Source of the DNA: Bacteroidaceae bacterium | GTDB taxonomy: Bacteria; Bacteroidota; Bacteroidia; Bacteroidales; Bacteroidaceae | Assembly (NCBI GenBank): GCA_017559845.1 | Contig: JAFYQQ010000020.1 | Location: 1 to 64,000 of the forward strand | DNA length: 64,000 bases | Direction: 5' to 3' | In this document: in pieces, positions 346 to 58,186 of the stretch | Layout: each line of letters begins with the position of its first letter | Position numbering within the stretch: position 1 is the stretch's first letter | The notes under the pieces: generated by a model | Told to the model about the DNA's origin: nothing | The model's input: only the letters and a program-made list of their open reading frames with translations | Databases searched by the model: none | Program-made: the position numbers and the translations under genes

Positions 346-384
346 GCGTGCCATTATTAAACGGAGAGCGGTGAACGAAAAAAC

Positions 385-551
385 GCAATGCTGTGCGTGG
401 GCAAAGACAATGCGGTGCGTGAACGGATGCAATGCGGTGACTTTATCCAGACACCGCATTGGCTTTTCAGAGCAGATATACTGCATGGGCCGATGCAGAT
501 ATACTGCAACGGCTGTAGAAGATATCTAAACGGGCAACGCAGTACTACTGC
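385..551. repeat. 22/23-bp periodic palindrome array (array A)
   Basis: The words GCAATG/ACAATG start at 385, 407 and 429, exactly 22 bp apart. They end in a hairpin (CAATGCGGTG at 430-439 pairing with CACCGCATTG at 452-461). The array continues as palindromes centred near 478, 501, 523 and 545 (two GCAGATATACTGC copies, AGATATCT, GCAGTACTACTGC), spaced about 22-23 bp. The block from 460 to 485 is identical to 38771-38796, so this array is homologous to the one upstream of the GH92 gene. Confidence 0.75.
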
Positions 552-10648: not shown

Positions 10649-10733
10649 CCCCAACTTTTGGGGAGAATTTCACCGCCTTACCTTTTTTTCCTCCCGAGGA
10701 AAATTTTACTACCTCCCGAGGAAAATAAAAAAG
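10649..10733. repeat. Two-unit 22-bp palindrome array (array F) between cyclophilin and regulator
   Basis: CCTCCCGAGGAAAAT occurs at 10690 and again at 10712, exactly 22 bp apart. Each lies in a 14-bp near-palindrome (TTCCTCCCGAGGAA), with the 8-bp spacer AATTTTAC between them. A separate palindrome CCCCAACTTTTGGGG lies at 10649-10663. It is located just downstream of the cyclophilin stop and may end its transcript. It has the same 14+8 architecture as the arrays at 38041 and 55966. Confidence 0.55.
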
Positions 10734-10740
10734 CGCAGTT

Positions 10741-37345: not shown

Positions 37346-38008
37346 ATGGAAACAAAATTTATTGTGAAAGAAAGCGAGTGTTGGAAAGCCGGTAAGAAAG
37401 ACTTGAAAGGCCGTTGGCTTGAAGCTGCTTTACTGACATTTGTCTTAATGCTGATTACCATTTTAGTCTCTGGCATTGTAGGCGGCGGACTTGATCTCAT
37501 TTATAAGGGATTAAGAACCTTTTCATCATTGCTCCTGCTGCCTTTGTCTTGGGGTTGGTCCATGACCTTCCTTGAGTGTCATCGCGGCGAAAACGACCCG
37601 TTCAACGACCCGTTTAACATAAAGAACTTGTTCGTGGGATACAACAAAGATTTCTCACGCATCTTCACCACCCTATTCCTTCAAACACTTTACACCATAC
37701 TGTGGACGCTTCTGCTCATTGTGCCCGGAATCATCAAAAGTCTCTCTTATGCACTTACACCTTACATACTGAAGGACTATCCCGAACTCAAAAACAACCA
37801 GCCAATAGAACTGAGCATGGCCATGATGCAGGGATACAAGCTGGAATTGTTCATCTTGCAGCTCAAGTACTTCGGTCTATGCCTATTGGGCATCCTCACA
37901 CTGGGTATCGCCTACTTCTGGATTGCTCCTTTCTACAGCGCAGCCATGGTCAATTTCTATGAAGAGGTGAAGAAGGCATACAACGAAAGAAGCGGAAACA
38001 CATTTTAA
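37346..38008 (+). CDS. DUF975 family membrane protein
   Basis: A 220-residue integral membrane protein. The start at 37346 (METKFIVKESECWKAGKKDLKGRWLEAALLTF) matches the family; the longer open frame reaching back to 37112 overlaps the candidate RNA and its terminator and has no protein-like features. About four to five hydrophobic helices, with the amphipathic entry 'KDLKGRWLEAALLTFVLMLITILVSG' and 'IVPGIIKSLSYALTPYILKDYPEL', the latter a DUF975 hallmark. Function unknown. Confidence 0.85.
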   Translation: METKFIVKESECWKAGKKDLKGRWLEAALLTFVLMLITILVSGIVGGGLDLIYKGLRTFSSLLLLPLSWGWSMTFLECHRGENDPFNDPFNIKNLFVGYNKDFSRIFTTLFLQTLYTILWTLLLIVPGIIKSLSYALTPYILKDYPELKNNQPIELSMAMMQGYKLELFILQLKYFGLCLLGILTLGIAYFWIAPFYSAAMVNFYEEVKKAYNERSGNTF

Positions 38009-38040
38009 GAAAAATCTTTACATAAAAATGGCATAAAAAT

Positions 38041-38125
38041 AACACTTAAGTGTTTCTTCCGTAACAGTTAAGTGTTTTTCCAAAAAGACTTAAGTGAAAC
38101 TCCAGAAACACTTAAGTCTTTTTTT
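38041..38125 (+). repeat. 22-bp palindrome array with terminator (array B)
   Basis: TTAAGTG/TTAAGTC starts at 38046, 38068, 38090 and 38112, exactly 22 bp apart. Each sits in a 14-bp mini-palindrome such as AACACTTAAGTGTT, with 8-bp spacers (TCTTCCGT, TTTCCAAA, ACTCCAGA). The last two units pair into a perfect 15-bp stem (38082-38096 with 38109-38123) ending in seven T's, so the array also works as the DUF975 terminator. Confidence 0.8.
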
Positions 38126-38334
38126 CGTGTGTTTTAGGAGGTAATTCTTCAGATTCGCATCCGCCTGACTATAAGAAGGTTGCATTGTCCTCTATTTTAC
38201 TTCATCACTCTAAAATCCGATTTTCTTGTTTTTTGACAAAAAGAAGATGATGGCACACAGATAACACAGATACGACAGATGATCGCAGATTTATTCCTTT
38301 GACAGAAGAACATAAGAACATGTTTTTCGTTTTC

Positions 38335-38384
38335 GGGTCACAGACCCTTATACTCAGAAACAGCGAATAACATATTCGCCGTAA
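38335..38384 (-). repeat. REP-like two-hairpin element (inverse of 669-717)
   Basis: Read on the minus strand: stem GCGAATA/TATTCGC (38363-38379), then TGAGTATAAG, then a second perfect hairpin GGGTC-TGT-GACCC (38335-38347). The layout equals that of the REPs flanking the RAYT gene at 57549-58247. Confidence 0.6.
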
Positions 38385-38390
38385 CAGAGT

Positions 38391-38515
38391 AGTGACGGGG
38401 GTAGGGACGTCTGCGTGCAGCATCCGGAAAGCACATTGGGTTATAATCGCACGCTCACGAATCTCACAAAATTATATTATAGCTCTAAACCTTTGGCGAG
38501 ATTGGCGTGAGTAAA
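38391..38515 (-). repeat. Composite repeat, copy 3 (inverted)
   Basis: The reverse complement reads through the same blocks as 115-240: CTCACGCCAATCTCGCCAAAGG, GTGAGATTCGTGAG, ATAACCC, GCTGCACGCAGACGTCCCTA. It carries a few substitutions and a small AT insertion. Adjacent to the REP-like element, as in copy 2. Confidence 0.8.
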
Positions 38516-38518
38516 AAA

Positions 38519-38585
38519 CTTCGGACGCTGCACGCAGACGTCCCTACCCCCTCATCACTCACTGCTCATCACTCACTACTCATCC
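38519..38585 (+). repeat. Composite repeat, partial copy 4, with CTCA tract
   Basis: CTTCGGACGCTGCACGCAGACG, CCCTACCCCC and then CTCATCACTCACTG words and CCGCGTGCCATTA, in the same order as 205-358. Confidence 0.75.
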
Positions 38586-38603
38586 GCGTGCCATTAAAAA
38601 ATG

Positions 38604-38863
38604 AAAGGCGCTTTCTTCGCAAAGTAAAGGCGATTCATTGCGGGATGAAAGGCGATTCGTTGGCAAAGTAAAGGCGATGCATTGTATCGGTTAAGACAAT
38701 GCATTGCGTGAGCCATATCAAAGCATTGACTTGCTCCGGTCAATGCTTTGTCTTTTTGGAGAAGAAATAGTGGCTTTTCAGAGCAGATATACTGCAAGTG
38801 CAAACGAAGATATACTGCATCGGCCGTAGAAGTATATCTTAATCGCGCAATGCAGTACTACTG
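38604..38863. repeat. 22/23-bp periodic array (array C)
   Basis: AAAGGCG starts at 38604, 38626, 38648 and 38670 (22-bp steps). GCATTG follows at 38679, 38701 and 38723 (22-bp steps), closing in a 12-bp perfect hairpin (38719-38730 with 38739-38750, 8-nt loop). Then palindromes are centred at about 38789, 38812, 38835 and 38858 (23-bp steps: GCAGATATACTGC, AAGATATACTGCA, AAGTATATCTT, CAGTACTACTG). Homologous to array A, but the 38604-38670 part is diverged or replaced. Confidence 0.75.
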
Positions 38864-42576: not shown

Positions 42577-44619
42577 TTACTTCAGCGTCCAGTAGTTATA
42601 AACCTTCAGGTTCGTAACCTTGCTCTTGAAGTTTCCGGCTTTCTGCAATGGGAAGACAAGGGTTCTCTGTAGGAACATCTTGGCACCATCGGTATCATAC
42701 ATGATGGGTTCGGCCGAATTCTCTGCGTTGTACATCACATGTACCTGGTTTTGGGGCTTGACAACGTAGATTGTCTTTACGTCCAGCGTTTCGCGGTGCT
42801 TTCCGTTGATGTAAAGGGCGGTCTTCTTGTTGTTGCCTTGAATGGCAATGTCCACCTTCTGGCCCACGGGGATGCGGTAGTTGAACTGGGCCAGGAAGCC
42901 GTCGCGCCAGAAGCCCAGGCGTCCGGTTTTGGGGTCGGCAATGTAGACAGTGGCGTTCTTCGACTTGAACAGCTCCGTTCCGTTGGCCTCTTCGGCTCCC
43001 TCCACGGTGAAGTTGACCGAATAGTCGTAGCCGATTTCCATGATGGGCAGCTCTTCGCCGGCCTTCACCTCGGCATCTTCCAGGACGAGTTTCTGCTCTG
43101 TACCATACAGGGCCAGTTCGTTCACGCCGGGGGCTTCGGACAGTTCAAGGCGCTTTTTGTTAAAGTCGGCATAAGGTAGAGTGGTTTCTTTTGCCGTCCA
43201 GCACTTCACGGCCAGAGTCTGCAGGGCGGGGAATACGCGGTGGTGTATGTCCTTTGTGGAAATGCCGTTCACGTGGTCGTTCCACACGGCAAACATACCG
43301 CCCAGAATGGCGGGGTCCTTCTCCTCGAATTTCTGGTTGCCGATGATGGCCGGTGTCCAGTTGTTGTACAGGTTGTTGCAGTTCAGGTAGTCATAGTAAT
43401 ATCCCGATGCCGGAACGATGTAGACCAGTCCGTCGGGGATGCTTACCAGCTTGTATCCCTGCTTCTTCATTTCTGTGGGGTCGGCATATCCGTTGTACCA
43501 GCAGTTCATGATAACGTTCTCTGCCTTTACGGGGGTGTCGCCCTTGGCATGGGTCAGTGCGCCCCATACCATGGCCTGCTTGCCAAAGCTTTCCACGTAC
43601 TTGATGTAGTGGTCGGTAAAGGCGCGGAATGCCTCAACCACTTCCTTCTTGGCGTTGGAGTACTCGTCCGTTCCGATGTGGACACGCGGACCGCGGAACA
43701 CCGGGTTCTCTCCTTCGATGTACTCCTTGAACAGTCCGTCCATAAACTTGTAGGTTTCGGGGTTGAACAGGTCCAGGTGGTCCATTCCGTATTCCTTCGA
43801 TGCAATTTCGGGCTTGTAGTGTGTGAAGGCCAGTGAGTGGGCGGGCGCGTCAATCTCAGGAATCACCTCCACATAGTTCTGCTCTGCCAGAATCTGCATG
43901 TCAATGAACTCCTGCTTGGTGTACGAACCGTCCTTGGCGGTCAGGCCGGGATAGGTTTCGCTCTCCAGACGGAAGGCCGACTGCGTCTTGGCCCAGTCGT
44001 CGCCGAAGTACTGACGGAATCCGTTGTCGTTCAGGTGCACCTGCAGGGTGTTCATCTTGTAGTAGGCCATAATCTTCACCAGGTTGCGCAGGTAATCCAT
44101 GGGGATGTACTTGCGGGCCACGTCAATCATGAATCCGCGCATGGCATAGTTGGGCACATCGGTGGTCTTTCCCTTGGGCAACTGGCAGGTCTCGTTCTGT
44201 TCGGACAGCTGCAGTACGGTACGGGTGGCCCAGAATGCACCTTGCAGGGTGGCGGCGCTCATTACGGCCTTCTCGCCAATCTCCAGGTTATAGCCTTCTG
44301 CCCCCAGGGCGGTCTGCTTCTTGTTCACTTCCAGCACAAAGTCGCCGGCCTTTCCACCGCCCTTCACAACGGAAAGTTCCTTTCCCGTAAGCAGTTTGTA
44401 GTCGGCTGCAAATTCCTGCGCAATGCGCATGAGCTCCTTGTTTCCGCCCTTCACGGCCACGCGACCCGAGGGGACGAACATTCCCTCTGCACCGGTCCAC
44501 GATGTCAGTTCGGGAATGACAAAGGGCTTGGGGTTGATTTCTGCACGCAGCGAAAAGGCATTCAGCACTAAAGCTCCCGCCAATGCGGCGCACCACTTGG
44601 TTAAATGTTGTAGTTTCAT
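42577..44619 (-). CDS. GH20 beta-N-acetylhexosaminidase
   Basis: A 680-residue exported enzyme that removes terminal beta-GlcNAc/GalNAc by substrate-assisted catalysis. Signal peptide ending LRAE; GH20b domain (about 30-150); TIM barrel (about 155-490) with 'RGFMIDVARKYIPMDYLRNLVKIMAYYKMNTLQVHLNDN', H261 ('PEIDAPAHSLAF') and the catalytic pair D318-E319 ('VHIGTDEYSN'). The C-terminal ~180 residues form a LamG-like beta domain ('GYDYSVNFTVEGAEEANGTELFKSKNATVYI...'). Convergent with the mannosidases; could act on the same N-glycans. Promoter box TATCTTTG lies at 44663-44670. Confidence 0.94.
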   Translation of the reverse strand: MKLQHLTKWCAALAGALVLNAFSLRAEINPKPFVIPELTSWTGAEGMFVPSGRVAVKGGNKELMRIAQEFAADYKLLTGKELSVVKGGGKAGDFVLEVNKKQTALGAEGYNLEIGEKAVMSAATLQGAFWATRTVLQLSEQNETCQLPKGKTTDVPNYAMRGFMIDVARKYIPMDYLRNLVKIMAYYKMNTLQVHLNDNGFRQYFGDDWAKTQSAFRLESETYPGLTAKDGSYTKQEFIDMQILAEQNYVEVIPEIDAPAHSLAFTHYKPEIASKEYGMDHLDLFNPETYKFMDGLFKEYIEGENPVFRGPRVHIGTDEYSNAKKEVVEAFRAFTDHYIKYVESFGKQAMVWGALTHAKGDTPVKAENVIMNCWYNGYADPTEMKKQGYKLVSIPDGLVYIVPASGYYYDYLNCNNLYNNWTPAIIGNQKFEEKDPAILGGMFAVWNDHVNGISTKDIHHRVFPALQTLAVKCWTAKETTLPYADFNKKRLELSEAPGVNELALYGTEQKLVLEDAEVKAGEELPIMEIGYDYSVNFTVEGAEEANGTELFKSKNATVYIADPKTGRLGFWRDGFLAQFNYRIPVGQKVDIAIQGNNKKTALYINGKHRETLDVKTIYVVKPQNQVHVMYNAENSAEPIMYDTDGAKMFLQRTLVFPLQKAGNFKSKVTNLKVYNYWTLK

Positions 44620-44662
44620 AGGTTTTATAGAATTGAAGTTGATGAAATAGTACTATTTTGTA

Positions 44663-44670
44663 CAAAGATA
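44663..44670 (-). promoter_or_regulatory. -7 box (TATCTTTG) for the GH20 gene
   Basis: TAnnTTTG match on the minus strand, 43 bp upstream of the GH20 start. 44671-44920 holds no gene that I can see. Confidence 0.5.
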
Positions 44671-44928
44671 CAACAAAGAAATGGAAATGAGGGCAAGAAA
44701 ACGCAAGAGAATCTGAAAAGAGAAGGTCTTCCGGCCATTGCGCTCAATGAAGCTGTAGGTTGGAAAGCTGTTCACGCCCAGGAAAGATTCTCAAACAAAC
44801 TCGAAATAAAATCAAAACAGATTCTGAAACGGCCAACAGTGCATGGAAATCAGTATTATTGTGGGGACATCTGTAAATTCGGCGGAACGTCATAAAAAAT
44901 CTTTACAGCGTAGTTTTTCGTAAAAATC

Positions 44929-45040
44929 CAGTTGATGGGCGGAAAATGCCCAGTTGGGAAAATATTTTTTCTCAGTTGGAAAAAAATATTTTCTCAGTTG
45001 GATAATTATTTTTTTCCAGTTGGGCAATTCTGAATGCCCT
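44929..45040. repeat. 22-bp periodic array with CAGTTGG words (array D)
   Basis: CAGTTG(G) starts at 44929, 44951, 44973, 44995 and 45017, exactly 22 bp apart. Here the 8-bp spacer (TCAGTTGG or CCAGTTGG) is constant, and the 14-bp segments between are AT-rich and often self-complementary (GAAAATATTTTTTC, AAAAAAATATTTTC). This is the reverse of arrays B and E, where the 14-mer is the constant part. It lies in the gap upstream of GH20 and beyond the end of the fasciclin gene. Confidence 0.75.
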
Positions 45041-45191
45041 TTTTGGTGTGTTTTTGTACGTTTTTACCCTTGTTTTTGTTGATTTTGAAAGTGAGGCAAA
45101 AATATGCAGATTTGAAAAATATTTACAATTGGCAAAGTTCTGTGGTGTACACAATTATAGAGACGTGCAAAGTAAGCATGCTGTTAAAACA

Positions 45192-45231
45192 AGAGAAGCA
45201 TGCTGTTTGGCACATTTCAGCATGCTTCTCT
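45192..45231 (-). terminator. Terminator-like hairpin after the fasciclin gene
   Basis: AGAGAAGCATGCT (45192-45204) pairs perfectly with AGCATGCTTCTCT (45219-45231), 14-nt loop, with a T-rich stretch beyond on the minus strand. An extra AAGCATGCTGTT copy lies at 45174-45185. Confidence 0.6.
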
Positions 45232-45297
45232 AAACAATGTTCCTCTTTTTTCTACCAATTTATAGTGTCAGGAAACAGACCACTACAAACGAGGGGT

Positions 45298-55965: not shown

Positions 55966-56090
55966 TACAATTTATTTTCATTGAAATGTAAACGTGTTTA
56001 CATCGTTGTGTAAATGCGTTTACATAGTTAGGTAAATGCATTTACACAACGATGTAAATCCACTTACACTGAAATGTAAATTCGCGGTCA
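55966..56090. repeat. 22-bp palindrome array, symmetric (array E)
   Basis: GTAAAC/GTAAAT starts at 55988, 56010, 56032, 56054 and 56076, exactly 22 bp apart. The units are 14-mers GTAAACGTGTTTAC, GTAAATGCGTTTAC, GTAAATGCATTTAC and GTAAATCCACTTAC. Spacers are ATTGAAAT, ATCGTTGT, ATAGTTAG, ACAACGAT and ACTGAAAT. Spacers 2 and 4 are reverse complements, so the whole array folds as one symmetric structure with perfect 21-bp arms at 55997-56017 and 56038-56058. The rest of 55677-56183 is AT-rich without a gene. Confidence 0.85.
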
Positions 56091-57646: not shown

Positions 57647-58186
57647 ATGGCAACCCTCACAAAACACCTATACTTCACAACATCTACCGTCATTGACTGG
57701 GTAGACATCTTCACTCGTGCCAGTTATCGCCATATTGTTGTTGATTCGCCCTCCTATTGCCAGCAGGTAAAGGGGCTTAAGATTTACGCTTGGGCACTAA
57801 TGTCGAACCACCTACACATGGTAGTAAGTACGGAGGGAGAACAAACTATCGGTGAAATTCTGTGCGATTTCAAAAAATTTACGAACAAGAAAATATTGAA
57901 GACACTGGAAGAAGACGAAAACGAAAGCCGACGGACGTGGATGCTCGACCGTTTCCGCTTTGCTGGTGCGAACGATAAAAAGATTACAAATTACCGTTTC
58001 TGGCGAGAAGGCAACTACGTGGAGGATATTTATACACCAGAGTTCCTGCGGCAAAAAATTAACTACATCCATCAGAATCCAGTAAGAGCCGAGATAGTGG
58101 CTAGGCCAGAGGATTACCTATATAGTTCGGGACTGGACTATGCGGGAGAAAAAGGACTGCTGAATGTTGAGGTCATAAGATTTTAA
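57647..58186 (+). CDS. REP-associated tyrosine transposase (RAYT, Y1/HUH family)
   Basis: A 179-residue single-domain Y1 transposase related to IS200/IS605 TnpA. The HUH metal site is H55-L-H57 ('LMSNHLHMVVS') and the catalytic Tyr is Y140 ('LRQKINYIHQNPVRAEIV'). 'YRFWREGNYVEDIYTPEFL' is also typical. Length and motifs are intact, so it may be active. RAYTs are domesticated single-copy nucleases that act on short palindromic REP sequences. Here the gene is bracketed by inverted REPs at 57549-57602 and 58195-58247. No right-hand partner gene (TnpB) is present. Confidence 0.93.
   Translation: MATLTKHLYFTTSTVIDWVDIFTRASYRHIVVDSPSYCQQVKGLKIYAWALMSNHLHMVVSTEGEQTIGEILCDFKKFTNKKILKTLEEDENESRRTWMLDRFRFAGANDKKITNYRFWREGNYVEDIYTPEFLRQKINYIHQNPVRAEIVARPEDYLYSSGLDYAGEKGLLNVEVIRF

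Follow-up and report, generated by a model that had tools for sequence, protein, structure and literature searches.

The 3' end of a DUF975 gene (Pfam match) in the window, i.e. the whole 64,000-nt stretch of Bacteroidaceae DNA analysed here, is followed by an array of short palindromic words (array B, Table 1). The locus raises the question of whether a fixed 22-bp period combined with changing words is a general rule in these bacteria and, if so, at which level it is read. The first-pass annotation had placed TTAAGTG at 38046, 38068 and 38090 and TTAAGTC at 38112. Direct reading gives the same exact 22-bp steps, and TRF independently reports period 22 at 38040–38123. The 14-bp mini-palindrome assigned to every unit is perfect in unit 1 (AACACTTAAGTGTT); unit 2 has one mismatched pair, and units 3 and 4 are imperfect when taken alone. 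The palindromicity of the array exceeds a column-permutation null (p<0.01). Units 3 and 4 are exact mutual reverse complements and form a perfect 10-bp stem followed by seven Ts, so that a stable stem and a T-run are found 3' of a same-strand gene, as in intrinsic terminators. This anatomy supports the earlier proposal that the last two units act as a terminator. The predicted RNA fold of 38009–38135 has a minimum free energy of -32.5 kcal/mol (z -5.1), and a strong fold of the array is predicted on both strands. An Rfam search of the window matched only two tRNAs and no known RNA family at the arrays.

Table 1 Features of array B and of the other period-22 loci (positions in the window)
Feature	Position	Strand	Description	Basis
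Whole array B	38041–38125	+	four 22-bp units, joined by 12-bp linkers	lag-22 scan and TRF
Word 1, CACTTAAGTG	38043–38052	.	centre of the perfect 14-bp palindrome 38041–38054	direct reading; gapless alignment of copies
Word 2, CAGTTAAGTG	38065–38074	.	starts 22 bp past word 1	direct reading; alignment of copies
Word 3, GACTTAAGTG	38087–38096	.	arm 1 of terminator-like hairpin	direct reading; alignment of copies
Word 4, CACTTAAGTC	38109–38118	.	arm 2 of hairpin, exact reverse complement of word 3	direct reading; alignment of copies
7-T run	38119–38125	+	adjoins word 4; intrinsic-terminator-like end	direct reading
Leader, AAAAATCTTTACATAAAAAT	38010–38029	+	1 nt past the stop codon of the DUF975 gene (38006–38008); common to family A	
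Tail of dispersed B element	38126–38239	+	ends TTTTTTGACA; conservation lower between copies	alignment of 23 copies
Family D array, word AAAGGCGATTCATTCGC	38603–38707	+	continues into words of family F (CAATGCATTG) and a hairpin with a T tail	
Family A array, words CCAGTTGG / AAAATATTTT	44941–45033	+	ends in a GGGC..GCCC hairpin and T-run	
Family C array, words GTAAATGCATTTAC	55968–56090	.		
Family F-like array, words GCAATGCGGTG	367–445	.	22-bp period	
Two-unit 22-bp repeat CTCCCGAGGAA	10680–10734	.	weakest of the six loci	

The same period had been claimed for five other intergenic loci of the window. All five were recovered with a looser scan, giving six in total, of which 10680–10734 holds only two units; TRF reports array B and three more period-22 arrays. 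Like array B, the other arrays are members of dispersed families. In the sister genome RGIG211, a family A element stands in place of the array at 38603–38707. Two gaps of the window, 38380–38584 and 61–321, are mosaics of a ~170-bp inverted-repeat element (GTAGGGACGTCTGCGTGCAGC...) and 7-bp tandem repeats (CTCATCACTCACTA); other 7-mers, e.g. GAAGAAT and AAAGTTT, occur in the genus sample. A GH20-family gene (42577–44619) and, with it, the family A array are missing at this place from the sister genome (window 42577–45285 compared with L149).

Beyond the window, 110 arrays are found at lag 22 in the intergenic DNA of five Bacteroidaceae-type samples, compared with 0–7 at each of the other lags. 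Exceptions are values of up to about 16, mainly at multiples of the 7-bp repeats, which also account for part of the excess at lags 14 and 21, and the 44-bp harmonic with 60 arrays. The genome-wide excess expected from the first-pass annotation is present in the sampled intergenic DNA when compared with shuffles: dinucleotide-preserving shuffles gave no lag-22 array in any trial, whereas the real 51 kb hold 28. Over 464 kb sampled from the genome that contains the window, lag 22 is the sole peak in non-coding DNA. A second scan counted 30 lag-22 arrays in this genome, 27 in the sister, 23 in the genus and nine in other genera of the family, and a single one across twenty other families of the order. 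Twenty other species of the genus, none of which carries family B, show the lag-22 peak as well, with unrelated words such as GACGCGTC, CCCCTAGGGG, GGTTAACC and TTCACGTGTGAA. The closed genome of another genus, G068, holds 21 arrays at lag 22 versus 0–4 at neighbouring lags; these rates derive from samples of about 13–15% of the genome with the window and 11% of G068. G068 has four or more word families, one of which recurs in at least 12 places, and their copies have the array alone in common, not the flanks. Against a permutation null that keeps the period, palindromicity is elevated in 25 of 37 arrays, and in G068 in 17 of 21. Words are wholly different between arrays, between genera and inside one closed genome. 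A fixed period with changing palindromic words is thus real across the genus and the family.

Families with a period of 21 or 23 bp are rare. Since they exist, the rule is better stated as two helical turns, which means 22 bp in nearly all cases. The window's own genome has a period-21 palindromic family GGAACGTACGTTCC (L091 12810–12973, L094 16866–16960, L105 70–182), a period-23 family GCAGATATACTGCA (L098 13929, L102 17380) and a period-18 array CTAGANNNTCTAGA (L105 7683). The CTAAGTATTATACTTAG-family arrays of G068 (L237 109–194, L238 227–310, L244 8285–8428) begin in GGACCAAAGTAT and finish in ATACTTTGGTCC; the two caps are complementary and would fold each whole array into one closed structure.

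The other expectation of the first-pass annotation, that corresponding gaps in sister strains stay periodic, had a mixed outcome behind the DUF975 gene. The array recurs unchanged in kind in two close sisters, and one distant homologue (G207) carries a 22-bp array built from different words; most of the 27 more distant homologous gaps hold no array. The further claim that selection is blind to sequence is not supported. In family B, copies agree in their words, in the order of these and in their linkers, and arrays at orthologous loci have changed less than the coding DNA beside them. Seven orthologous B arrays are 98.8% identical without gap columns, and the stretch upstream of them, mostly coding, is 87.6% identical. 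In the comparison with RGIG9105, the array matches at 82 of 83 positions, the gene at 81% and its four-fold sites at 76%. The tails (87.1% and 66% identity, respectively) would mislead if taken alone, because some tails were apparently swapped between copies; the coding comparison stands. Orthologues carry locus-specific linkers in common, which argues against homogenisation between copies. These alignments show purifying selection on B arrays at orthologous loci. Words therefore differ between families and not freely at one site.

Arrays concentrate at gene 3' ends. Their pooled density is 0.84/kb in convergent, 0.43/kb in co-directional and 0.22/kb in divergent gaps, as classed by a home-made dicodon-based gene caller (chi-square p 8e-5, only indicative, since neither the copies nor the sister genomes are independent observations). 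Divergent gaps hold 10 of 106 arrays. Copies of family B are usually located 4–250 bp 3' of a same-strand stop codon.

Family B is found in at least 17 places of its own genome at 80–97% identity (106-bp query). Its copies consist of a common leader AAAAATCTTTACAC directly before the array, four words in one order, the T-run and a tail ending in TTTTTTGACA. The full element of the window spans 38010–38239, its tail being weakly conserved. The leader is kept in nearly all B copies; it is identical in RGIG211 and, with neighbouring bases counted, matches RGIG9105 at 32 of 34 positions. Family A has a leader (AAAAATCTTTTACA) and a tail in the style of family B, with different words. Full family B copies were found in only two other genomes among those tried, RGIG211 and G155 (probably RGIG9105), both close relatives.

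This distribution brings MITE-like or REP-like selfish repeats into consideration, i.e. short non-coding elements that are spread by a transposase in trans, with the array as the transposase-binding part and gene ends as harmless insertion sites. Families A, B and C are indeed dispersed, multi-copy, non-coding and restricted to few close relatives, with defined common ends. One gap holds a family A element in one species and lacks it in the sister, and a MITE with a 23-nt tandem repeat, BrickBuilt of P. gingivalis, is documented (PMC4596501). We nevertheless consider selfish repeats an unlikely explanation. Terminal inverted repeats were not seen, the ends of A and B being alike in direct orientation. 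No clean target duplication was seen either, at the sole gain or loss site examined, where the breakpoints are ragged and lie in 7-bp repeats. Copies in G068 have no common flanks, and orthologous B arrays that outconserve coding DNA are not predicted by selfishness. An origin from RAYT/REP systems was rejected: the three Y1/RAYT genes of the genome (Y1_Tnp genes at C23, at C60 and at window 57647–58186) are flanked by REP palindromes of their own, not by the array words. One family A array lies ~0.4 kb from the Y1_Tnp gene match at C23, within other REPs. The window ORF at 57647–58186 encodes a Y1/IS200-like RAYT transposase (PF01797) and is located between its own REP-like palindromes GGCGAATTTCGAAATTCGCC and GCCGAATTGCAAATTCGGC.

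Purely mutational processes could also build such arrays, with units gained by slippage and palindromes maintained by template switches from one inverted repeat to another, in the absence of any function. In L077 (sister G032:C45) the third linker is TTTCCGGAGTTT, the reverse complement of the usual AAACTCCAGAAA or similar, with the words unchanged, which suggests a hairpin-templated inversion. The spacers of family A flip likewise (AGTT/AACT), and both cases resemble template-switch or inversion events. A by-product of this kind leaves unexplained the 22-bp period that unrelated words and genera have in common, the restriction to one family, the bias towards gene 3' ends and the purifying selection. 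Already weakened on these grounds, it is very improbable.

The palindromes might act in the transcript. In such an RNA-level element, transcribed tandem stem-loops would stop transcription and shield the 3' ends of mRNAs, in gaps between convergent genes on either strand, and 22 nt would be the size of a hairpin module. The location at gene 3' ends, the strong folds on both strands and the T-runs 3' of families A, B and F are consistent with this. So are the compensatory changes of family B: five both-side changes were found, all in the pairings of units 1-2 and 3-4. Covariation was rejected as a source of a pairing scheme, with only these five changes in family B and a broader scan of dyad centres that gave too much noise where arrays are A/T-rich. 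The T-run, however, is not a class-wide feature. It is present in 6 of 24 arrays of the genus, compared with 32% of random intergenic sites, and in 5 of 21 arrays of G068; most arrays outside this species pair are without it. The sense strand of co-directional arrays has no G-U bias either (33 G.T and 45 A.C among mismatched pairs). Hairpins need no fixed mutual spacing, yet units 2 and 3, which do not pair, also keep a constant distance, with zero indels among 30 aligned B copies. Strand-specific selection for RNA hairpins was rejected for lack of a G-U bias and of a general T-run, and a primary role of the arrays in RNA appears rather doubtful to us.

Because T-runs are not enriched, G-U pairs are not preferred and the spacing is fixed between units that need not pair, the DNA level is taken as the common denominator, with termination as a further function that some families have. 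Our tentative reading, to which we give somewhat less than an even chance, is that the array is a helically phased DNA-level gene-end element that often doubles as a terminator, one member of a class widespread in the Bacteroidaceae-type family. Such an element consists of 3–8 palindromic words with dyad centres two helical turns apart (22 bp, in rare cases 21 or 23), which places inverted half-sites about once per turn on the same face. The phase would be read on DNA by one-face dimers of a candidate DNA-binding protein, or by a topology-sensing enzyme, and the end of the transcription unit would become a punctuation or boundary site. At this locus and in families A, B and F, a hairpin and T-run may have been acquired or kept, and the element would then also terminate transcription of the upstream gene. 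Words could differ if each new element gave rise to a family of its own that then spread as a unit by some copying route. That the rare alternative periods sit nearby, at 21 and 23, supports a DNA-level reading. Many unrelated words per genome are hard to square with one sequence-specific protein. Some arrays lie in divergent gaps, the compensatory changes of family B fit hairpins of RNA or single-stranded DNA, and the dispersal of whole elements looks like that of a mobile element.

A broader version of the DNA-level reading is possible, although we hold it with more reserve. Here, arrays across Bacteroidaceae gene ends would form a repeat class defined by geometry, with dyads at exactly two turns, in which a factor reads spacing and self-complementarity (or paralogous dimers do so, one per word family) and the arrays serve as transcription or chromosome boundary elements. 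If the rule holds, an abundant family of gut bacteria marks its gene ends with a fixed rhythm and free letters, and offers a natural system to ask what in the cell measures exactly 22 bp. Such a class would escape homology-based searches for repeats and RNAs. No description of a fixed 22-bp period with changing palindromic words was found in the open-access literature searched, which did yield BrickBuilt and surveys of REP elements.

Among known systems, intrinsic terminators resemble the end of array B; the difference is a phased array where one hairpin suffices. Plasmid iterons are direct repeats of about 22 bp of one sequence, arranged in helical phase at the replication origin. The arrays share this repeat length and helical phasing. 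Unlike iterons, they are chromosomal, palindromic and variable in their words, and tens of copies are located at gene ends between ordinary genes. Two representative array queries had no match in a plasmid collection, and a plasmid, phage or viral origin was rejected, as the queries tried gave no match.

REP/BIME elements with their RAYT (Y1 transposase), for which GTAG/CGTC tags are described (PMC3733652), are likewise palindromic and intergenic, with tens of dispersed copies and lineage-specific words. In contrast to these, the arrays comprise 3–8 units in a rigid tandem 22-bp register and several unrelated word families per genome. A GTAG or CGTC tag was not noticed in the array units that were read. 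The nearest described element in Bacteroidales is BrickBuilt, an intergenic MITE of Porphyromonas gingivalis with about 19 copies, a 23-nt tandem unit, a leader and a tail (PMC4596501). It has one sequence in one species group, 1–23 units and terminal inverted repeats, and the text of the paper contains no word beginning with 'palindrom' (PMC4596501). Both systems belong to Bacteroidales, are intergenic, have tandem units of nearly equal length and are bordered by a leader and a tail. BrickBuilt, however, follows one 23-nt consensus, whereas the arrays described here have a period of 22 bp, are built from many unrelated words and occur family-wide.
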